Assembly (NCBI RefSeq): GCF_900188065.1
Contig: NZ_FZNQ01000004.1
Span: 62,001-126,000 of the forward strand
Length of the DNA: 64,000 nt
Origin: Halorubrum vacuolatum
Lineage (GTDB): Archaea; Halobacteriota; Halobacteria; Halobacteriales; Haloferacaceae
Reading direction: 5' to 3'
The notes below the pieces were generated by a model. The model was not told the origin of the DNA, ran no database searches, and saw only the letters and a list, made by a program, of their open reading frames with translations. The translations under genes were made by a program, and so were the position numbers. This document shows positions 8,595 through 10,426 of this stretch, piece after piece; position 1 is the stretch's first letter; the number at the start of each line of letters is the position of its first letter.

Positions 8595-8993
8595 ATGAGC
8601 GAGACCCTCGATGACGACCTCTACGTCCGGACGAAGGCGTTGTTGGAGCCCGGCGATATCGAGTTAGTCGGTTGTATCGTCCATACGACCCTCTCCGGCA
8701 GCGAGGACCTCGAGATGCACGAGTTGACCGTCGCGGCCAACGACGTTATCGCCGCACACGCCGACAAGGGCGAGACGTACATCGAGGCCGGGAACGACAA
8801 CACCGACTTCTCCTCGAACCAGTTTCAGGGGCTTACGCTCGACGATGAAGCGTTCGTCTGGGAGTGTCAACAGCTCCTCCGTGAGGGAACCTTCGACATC
8901 GTCTTTTATTATGAGGCCGGCGTCGATCAGGATGCACTCGCAAGCGCCCTCGCCGATCTCGACGGCGTCGATCGCGTAACGCAGGTCCCGTGA
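8595..8993 (+). CDS. Conserved haloarchaeal protein (DUF5778-like)
   Basis: 132-aa soluble acidic protein. The visible order is MSETLDDDLYVRTKALLEPG, VGCIVHTTLSGSEDLEMHELTV (split here after LSG), an AHADKGETYIEAGNDNTDF middle and a C-terminal FDIVFYYEAGVDQDAL with repeated short beta/alpha units. No cofactor motif is seen. I link it to DUF5778 from memory, with moderate certainty. It sits 69 nt after the M50 protease on the same strand and ends in a strong stem-loop, so the two may share a transcript. Confidence 0.72.
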   Translation: MSETLDDDLYVRTKALLEPGDIELVGCIVHTTLSGSEDLEMHELTVAANDVIAAHADKGETYIEAGNDNTDFSSNQFQGLTLDDEAFVWECQQLLREGTFDIVFYYEAGVDQDALASALADLDGVDRVTQVP

Positions 8994-8995
8994 AC

Positions 8996-9035
8996 TGCCT
9001 CGGGGTCAAGCCCCGAGGCACTCGCCTTGTTTTCT
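8996..9035 (+). terminator. Stem-loop with T-rich tail after the DUF5778-like gene
   Basis: A 10-bp perfect stem TGCCTCGGGG/CCCCGAGGCA (8996-9005 and 9011-9020) closes a 5-nt loop and is followed by CTCGCCTTGTTTTCTC. It starts three bases after the stop codon. A T-rich tail after a GC stem is compatible with termination, although archaeal terminators depend mainly on the T-run. Confidence 0.55.
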
Positions 9036-9155
9036 CTGTAGACCTCAGGGACACCGCGTTCGGACGTGACGTGATCACACACCCCTCGTTAAATTATGCC
9101 ATTTGAACATCTGGAAATAAATCTTTAAGCGGGGTTAAACCACATCCCGAAACGC

Positions 9156-9302
9156 ATGCCATACGAACATCAGCCGGCGCACCAGACGCCGGGCGCAGGG
9201 CACGTGGACAGCAGATATGAACCGCCCGTCGCCACCGATACCGTCGACGGGACTCCAAAGGGCGAGTTGGCCGCCGGCGAACCCATCGGAGGGTGCCTAT
9301 GA
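9156..9302 (+). CDS. 48-codon upstream ORF / candidate leader peptide overlapping mgtE
   Basis: Open frame ATG(9156) to TGA(9300-9302) encoding 48 residues, beginning MPYEHQPAHQTPGAGH and ending GEPIGGCL. It is rich in proline (seven) and histidine (three in the first sixteen residues). A TTTAAG box at 9124-9129 lies about 28 nt before the ATG, so this ORF, not mgtE, has the leaderless-start geometry. Its stop overlaps the mgtE start as ATGA, and the only Shine-Dalgarno-like motif (GGAGGG, 9288-9293) lies inside its last codons. Translation of mgtE therefore probably depends on ribosomes reading this ORF. Nothing similar in sequence is known to me. The position recalls bacterial proline-rich leaders of magnesium transporters, by analogy only. 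Confidence 0.55.
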   Translation: MPYEHQPAHQTPGAGHVDSRYEPPVATDTVDGTPKGELAAGEPIGGCL

Positions 9303-10426
9303 ATACAGACGCCCCATCAGACGAGTTCTTTTATCCTGACGGTGGCACCGATGAAGGTGCGCCGTCCGAACCGATCCCCGAACAACACTTCGATACCGTC
9401 TCCGAGGTCCTCACCGGCGACTACGTCGCCGTCGGCTCCGATACCTTCGCCGGCATCGCCATCGAACGCTTCCGAGAGTTCGCGCCGACCGACGAGGACG
9501 AGACCACGGTCTACTACGTCTACGTCGTGGAGGGCGCCGATGAGAACGGCGAACCCGGCGAGCTCGTCGGGGTGCTCTCGCTGCGCGAACTGTTGAACGC
9601 GCCGGAGGACACACCGGTTTCGGAGATCATGACCGAGGACCTGATCACCCTCGGCGTCGACGACGAGATCGAACCCGCCGCCCGCCGGATGCGCGAACTC
9701 GAGTTCCCGGTGCTGCCGGTAACCGACGCCGACGGTGCGCTTCGCGGCGTCCTCCGCGCCGACGACATGATGGGCGCGCTTGAGGAGGAGGCAACCGAGG
9801 ACATCATGAAAAGCGCCGGTATCTCCTTTTCGAGCGCCGAGGAGGCGCGCTCGACGGCGATCCTCGAATCCTCGATCTCGCGGATCCTTCGGCTGCGACT
9901 CCCCTGGTTGCTCGTCGCGCTGGCGGGTGGACTCGCTGCGGGGCTCGTCATCGAGGGCTTCGAGGAGACGCTGGATGCGGTCATCGTCCTCGGCTTCTTC
10001 ATCCCCGTCATCATGGACATGGGTGGCAACGTCGGCACGCAGGCGTCGACAATCTTCGTCCGCGGCCTCGCGCTCGGGCACATCGACGACGAGAACGCGA
10101 TGCGTCACTTCGCCCGCGAGACGAAAGTCGGGCTCGTGATCGGCGTCATTATCGGATCCATCGGCGCGCTCGCCGCCTACGGCTGGATCGCCGGTCTGCG
10201 CGGTGAGGCGGCCGACGCGGGCACCATCGCCTTCGTCATCTTCGTCTCGCTCGTCGCGGTCTGTGTCATCGCGAGCCTCGTCGGCTACGTGATCCCGTGG
10301 ATCGCCCACAAACTGGACTACGACCCCGCGGCGGTCTCGGACCCGCTCGTGACGACCGTGAAGGACGTCACCGCGCTCGTGATCTACTTCGGGCTCGCGA
10401 CGGTGCTTCTCGCACACTTGTTGTAG
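9299..10426 (+). CDS. mgtE: MgtE-family magnesium transporter with CBS pair
   Basis: Divalent-cation (Mg2+) channel/transporter of the plasma membrane. Residues about 35-165 form a soluble tandem CBS module (LVGVLSLRELL, PVSEIMTEDLITLGVDDEI, EFPVLPVTDADGALRGV). Residues about 200-375 form the five-helix MgtE channel with the signature PVIMDMGGNVGTQASTI lining the pore and the SDPLVTTVKDVTALVIYF last helices. The long bacterial N-terminal superhelical domain is absent, so sensing probably relies on the CBS part. Start: ATG 9299, preceded by GGAGGG five bases away; a GTG at 9293 is also in frame. Its start overlaps the stop of the 48-codon upstream ORF. Confidence 0.93.
   Translation: MNTDAPSDEFFYPDGGTDEGAPSEPIPEQHFDTVSEVLTGDYVAVGSDTFAGIAIERFREFAPTDEDETTVYYVYVVEGADENGEPGELVGVLSLRELLNAPEDTPVSEIMTEDLITLGVDDEIEPAARRMRELEFPVLPVTDADGALRGVLRADDMMGALEEEATEDIMKSAGISFSSAEEARSTAILESSISRILRLRLPWLLVALAGGLAAGLVIEGFEETLDAVIVLGFFIPVIMDMGGNVGTQASTIFVRGLALGHIDDENAMRHFARETKVGLVIGVIIGSIGALAAYGWIAGLRGEAADAGTIAFVIFVSLVAVCVIASLVGYVIPWIAHKLDYDPAAVSDPLVTTVKDVTALVIYFGLATVLLAHLL

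Follow-up and report, generated by a model that had tools for sequence, protein, structure and literature searches.

A predicted leaderless upstream ORF overlapping the magnesium transporter gene mgtE in Halorubrum vacuolatum and other haloarchaea

Introduction

What is the role of a 48-codon open reading frame that runs into the start of the magnesium transporter gene mgtE in Halorubrum vacuolatum? The original prediction, made from the letters of a 64,000-nucleotide stretch of DNA (referred to here, at its full length, as the window), was that ribosomes load on this upstream ORF (uORF) as a leaderless mRNA, that mgtE is translationally coupled to it, and that its proline- and histidine-rich peptide could be an archaeal counterpart of the leader peptides MgtL and MgtP of Salmonella. 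In a literature search limited to open papers, no report of the uORF-mgtE element was found, though this is not proof of priority; nor did those papers yield, for archaea, translated leader ORFs under purifying selection or leader-based control of Mg2+ transport. Sixteen uORFs of 15-31 amino acids have been described in long 5'-UTRs of Haloferax volcanii, with no Mg transporter named (PMC4983044), along with possible small ORFs in 5'-UTRs of Methanosarcina (PMC11456600). The Haloferax uORFs resemble the present one in being small ORFs upstream of haloarchaeal genes; they come from one genome, whereas comparative conservation and overlap with the main gene are shown here.

The mgtE locus of the window

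The uORF lies at positions 9156-9302 of the forward strand, as do all stranded features given below, and its 48 codons encode MPYEHQPAHQTPGAGHVDSRYEPPVATDTVDGTPKGELAAGEPIGGCL, with 7 prolines and 3 histidines among the 48 residues. A TATA-like box, TTTAAG, is found at 9124-9129, the distance to the uORF ATG being 32 nt from its first T and 27 nt from its last base, as would be expected of a leaderless haloarchaeal message. The uORF stop, TGA (9300-9302), overlaps the mgtE ATG (9299-9301) in an ATGA at 9299-9302, and the Shine-Dalgarno (SD) motif for mgtE, GGAGGG at 9288-9293, is situated within the last uORF codons, at the end of the segment GGCGAACCCATCGGAGGG (9276-9293) that encodes GEPIGG near the C-terminus. 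The ORF, the box, the stop/start overlap, the placement of the SD motif and the proline and histidine content are all as originally predicted. This uORF-overlap architecture is seen for one of the 58 likely genes in the window. An ORF like it arises in ~17% of dinucleotide shuffles (window leader, random frame); taken alone, the window uORF is not improbable.

Sixty nucleotides upstream of the uORF start ATGCCATACGAACATC (9156-9171), the segment ATGCCATTTGAACATC (9096-9111) matches it at 14 of 16 positions and gives rise to a 10-codon mini-ORF, MPFEHLEINL; it has the appearance of a small-scale duplication of that start. At 8988-9042 there is a TGCCTCGGGG/CCCCGAGGCA hairpin element, of which the genome has seven further copies, 86-96% identical; one of these (L002) adjoins a tnpB-like gene. 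The element is probably a lone terminus of an IS200/IS605-type (TnpB) element, located between a DUF5778 gene and the uORF promoter.

The mgtE gene itself (9299-10426) encodes a magnesium transporter of 375 amino acids with CBS domains (PF00571) and an MgtE membrane domain (PF01769), scoring 237.4 bits against the NCBIfam equivalog TIGR00400, above the cut-off of 232.75. The match spans positions 131-448 of the 450 in TIGR00400, and the N-terminal superhelical N domain is absent from the window MgtE. The idea that the uORF is a remnant of that domain was dropped, as the peptide has no Pfam match and as the SD-led mgtE of Methanosalsum (soda-lake methanogen relatives) encodes a protein starting directly at the CBS part, without such a uORF.

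The genome that carries the window is 3.48 Mb in size, and its second CBS-MgtE gene (on contig C22) has its own start at leaderless distance, without a uORF. Split MgtE gene pairs are likewise leaderless and without a uORF (for genus g58, see below); in many Natrialbaceae they stand beside the uORF-mgtE unit in divergent orientation, and in other haloarchaea they lie elsewhere. One CBS-MgtE gene of the other clade (L071, contig C74 of genome G046) is preceded by an 18-codon uORF that ends in an ATGA on the start of the gene, its sisters having no uORF. Searches of 34 further genomes from the genus of the window turned up no closely similar mgtE, the orthologs with 63-70% identity coming from other families, and the plasmid collection gave no match to the window MgtE protein at E 1e-60.

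Conservation of the arrangement

Orthologs were gathered from whole genomes and named genome contigs by mgtE, not by uORF, so that the sample of uORFs is unbiased. Removal of duplicates left 41 distinct loci with mgtE of the same type as in the window (clade A), 33 of them in Natrialbaceae. At all 41, mgtE is preceded by an ORF of 42-64 codons that is out of frame with it and whose stop, counted from the A of the mgtE ATG, falls at +4 to +20 nt; in most relatives the overlap is 11-20 nt. An overlapping upstream frame, for which the original prediction proposed to look at other haloarchaeal mgtE loci, is present at all of these. The uORF ATG is mostly 27-33 nt after a TATA-like box (the boxes of L092 and L126 are outside the simple TATA box list but similar), and an SD-like motif is found in the last uORF codons of most of the loci, being of the GAGGTGA type in relatives and weak in L043. 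Judged by the TATA-box distance only, and so as a prediction of the mRNA 5' end, leaderless spacing fits nearly all loci, and the leaderless start proposed for the window agrees with this pattern.

In shuffles the chance of an overlapping ORF is 9-24% for a single locus and ~4e-8 jointly over nine lineages; the uORF of this mgtE type is not a chance ORF. A search of 58 related genomes with the window peptide gave only chance-level matches (best E 0.008), for which reason homology was traced through mgtE, and family searches around genomes G177 and G043 yielded no clade-A loci beyond those known. Among the carriers are three genomes that appear to be those of Natrialba magadii, Natronobacterium gregoryi and Natronomonas pharaonis. 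Soda lakes, in which Mg2+ is scarce, are home to many of the carriers.

Selection on the uORF and character of its peptide

The 33 Natrialbaceae peptides, of 54-59 aa, align from end to end (MLDTNHSS...TLEELVLDLLEGEFAGVIRSHxRGEVYGG(C/R/...)-stop), their lengths vary by whole codons only, and the frame stays open. An acidic helix segment, LEELxLDLLEGEF, is conserved, and third codon positions vary freely. The pooled dN/dS for the whole uORF at these 33 loci is 0.28, a value that does not change when the last 12 codons, those bearing the SD motif and overlapping mgtE, are left out; over the helix part it is 0.18. A gap-free block gives 0.22 in frame versus 1.92 and 1.99 in the shifted frames, while one antisense frame is also low (0.32), as expected where wobble positions face each other. 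Comparison of 15 disjoint Natrialbaceae pairs yields 163 synonymous against 148 non-synonymous changes, the neutral expectation being that about a quarter of changes are synonymous (binomial P ~4e-26). In its own frame the Natrialbaceae uORF evolves under purifying selection, which is the outcome of the dN/dS check that accompanied the original prediction; these values apply to Natrialbaceae, and the lineage of the window lies outside that family. The in-frame dN/dS and the excess in the disjoint pairs argue that in Natrialbaceae the uORF is translated and its residues matter, and so that the peptide itself appears to be of consequence there.

The open frame might also be regarded as fortuitous in high-GC DNA, a by-product of a conserved promoter, SD motif and mgtE start. 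The single-locus chance given above would allow for this, but the joint chance, the in-frame selection and the change of length by whole codons make it very improbable, and for Natrialbaceae the selection and the kept frame refute it.

Outside Natrialbaceae the uORF peptides are barely alignable, differing almost completely between families. Their pI ranges from 4.2 to 11.2, their codon-position signal is weak, and neither their pI nor their G+C by codon position is protein-like, which argues that in these lineages translation itself may be conserved more than its product. Near the C-terminus G-E-[PV]-x-G-G is a recurring motif, seen in the window (AGEPIGG), in L103 (TGEPTGG), L041 (TGEPVGG) and L102, and in the Natrialbaceae (RGEVYGG), in part because the GG codons carry the SD motif in some loci.

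The selection seen in Natrialbaceae, and in particular the low dN/dS of the helix part, would also fit a microprotein that acts on MgtE, for example as a subunit or a regulator made in step with it. A related helix segment, TLEEQVRSLLDSAFSGVF, is found upstream of a TM-only mgtE paralog, and overlapping genes often encode subunits of a complex (PMC10666635), both of which are in keeping with such a role. The small amount of shared sequence outside Natrialbaceae, with its wide range of pI and weak codon-position signal, speaks against it, as do the low confidence of the AlphaFold model of the Natrialbaceae peptide (mean pLDDT 58) and the fact that the peptide belongs to no Pfam or NCBIfam family; on balance we consider it unlikely.

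Coupling of mgtE to the uORF

The explanation that we favor, at a probability of roughly 0.7, is that the uORF is an obligatory leaderless "starter" cistron from which ribosomes are passed to mgtE by termination-reinitiation. Transcription would start at or next to the uORF ATG, ~25-30 nt after the TATA box; ribosomes would load on the 5'-terminal AUG of the uORF, translate its 48 codons and stop at the mgtE start or just beyond it, where they would reinitiate, aided by the SD motif that the final uORF codons contain, mgtE translation being dependent on that of the uORF. As an internal SD motif gives no de novo initiation in haloarchaea, the uORF start would be the sole point at which ribosomes could enter for mgtE. 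We infer the transcription start and the coupling and, in Natrialbaceae, an extra function of the peptide.

In Haloferax, 9 of 9 gene pairs tested were strictly coupled, most of them overlapping and several having an AUGA with an SD motif, and those SD motifs gave no de novo initiation (PMC6728339). As in these termination-reinitiation (TeRe) pairs of Haloferax volcanii (Huber et al. 2019, 2023), the window, from a haloarchaeal host, has an AUGA overlap, with some overlap at all 41 loci, and an SD motif inside the upstream cistron. The Haloferax pairs tested are ordinary genes. In the present case the upstream member is a leaderless ORF of 42-64 codons that annotation has missed, its main partner encodes a transporter, and overlaps of 11-20 nt are common. 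Coupling in Haloferax fades within ~20 nt (PMC10666635). Two points weigh against the favored explanation: the overlap in relatives is mostly longer than the 4 nt tested in Haloferax, and the Natrialbaceae peptide is conserved more strongly than coupling alone requires. With the overlap and the SD position conserved and the Haloferax pairs strictly coupled, coupling nevertheless appears, by analogy, to be the best-supported mode of action, as the original prediction had it.

Exceptions and evolution of the leader

Searching 125 Natrialbaceae genomes with an HMM of the peptide gave matches essentially at mgtE only, with some exceptions. A TM-only MgtE paralog (L215, L216 and L218) has its own overlapping uORF, which bears the related helix segment mentioned above. 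The uORF in these three loci reads MRNQDAIFDT..LSELVLSLLDSAFAGVLCGSERRNRYGERKAR; next to it comes a short ORF that overlaps it, MENARHAEQ.., and is like the N-terminus of an mgtE product; the arrangement is perhaps a decayed second copy of uORF-mgtE.

In L223-L225, from genus g58, the original mgtE has been lost and the leader precedes a split MgtE pair. The first uORF ends in the usual motif, and a second, variable small ORF starts at the overlapping ATG, beginning MEAAE.., MEDAK.. or MEAVE.., a start that resembles the N-terminal residues encoded by the mgtE that was lost. The stop of this second ORF overlaps the first gene of the split pair in an ATGA in L224 and L225 and falls 7 nt short of it in L223. 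If coupling is obligatory, one would expect just such a series of overlaps, without a break, beginning at a leaderless start. In three further genomes (L219-L221), also of genus g58, 53-aa leaderless ORFs precede the split MgtE pair; they have an unrelated N-terminus, MFTWAATPVDR.., and retain only the C-terminal SHVRG(E/D)VYGG end.

The promoter element

An imperfect palindrome, TTTAAGCGGGGTTAAA, lies over the TATA box of the window at 9124-9139 and is a possible regulator site; alone it has a P of 0.125 and is not significant. The TATA box is overlain by the form TTTTAG-N6-CTAA in most Natrialbaceae, as well as in L043, L102 and L103, and by a looser version of it in the window. The mgtE promoters mostly carry TTTTAG[AC]N4TCTAA, and many Natrialbaceae uORF promoters have a second TTAG-N2-CTAA-like site ~20 nt further upstream. 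Because the element is conserved over the TATA box, its presence suggests that control of uORF-mgtE is at least partly transcriptional; a dimeric regulator acting at the uORF promoter is plausible, while the palindrome is only suggestive of an operator. The commonest form of the palindrome genome-wide is TTTTAGG-N4-CCTAA, often in pairs, which we take to be DtxR/Idr-like, and from these related sites one might guess that the putative regulator is DtxR-like.

Is the uORF a Mg2+ sensor?

The original prediction took the proline- and histidine-rich peptide as pointing to a leader of the MgtL/MgtP kind, the translation of which could set mgtE expression. In a Mg2+ sensor of that kind, uORF translation would shift with Mg2+, by stalling, abortion or ribosome destabilisation. 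The proline-based idea finds no support in the comparison, as proline richness is not conserved: the median number of prolines per peptide is 1 in the 33 Natrialbaceae (range 0-5), with 1-7 in other lineages. Neither a conserved proline-rich (or EPDP-like) codon run nor mutually exclusive stem-loops of the MgtL/MgtP type were found. The window RNA shows no gain in folding over shuffled sequences (z +1.1), and RNAalifold over 19 sequences gave no conserved fold, with a consensus of only -7.4 kcal/mol and a covariation term of -0.75. The same folding results bear on the possibility that the conservation stems from an RNA element acting in cis in the leader, for instance a Mg2+ riboswitch. There are conserved nucleotides near the SD motif and the start codon, but the poor consensus fold, the free variation of third codon positions and the restriction of Rfam matches in the window to tRNAs leave such an element with very little likelihood.

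The likeness to MgtL, MgtP and MgtQ of enterobacteria extends only to the presence of a small ORF before the gene for a Mg2+ transporter; conserved prolines and a conserved RNA switch are absent here, and the predicted mode is coupling by overlap instead of attenuation. The transporters in those systems, MgtA and MgtB, are P-type ATPases, a family other than MgtE. A looser version would be an archaeal leader that senses Mg2+ (or a low-Mg2+ state of the ribosome), is translated leaderless and meters the ribosomes that reach the overlapping MgtE start. The uORF is always linked to Mg transporters, and the conserved acidic helix of Natrialbaceae leaves room for control by ribosome destabilisation like that described for Salmonella mgtQ, in which acidic residues and not the proline codon are reported to count (PMC8092293). 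Haloarchaeal proteins, however, are acidic anyway, and the peptides are nearly unrelated between families; with the proline and folding results above, Mg2+ sensing by the uORF, in the stricter as in the looser form, seems doubtful to us.

Significance

The uORF-mgtE arrangement recurs across several haloarchaeal families, and short overlapping leader cistrons of this sort are missed by the length cut-offs used in annotation. If the uORF did sense Mg2+, MgtL-type control would have a counterpart that arose independently outside the bacterial domain.
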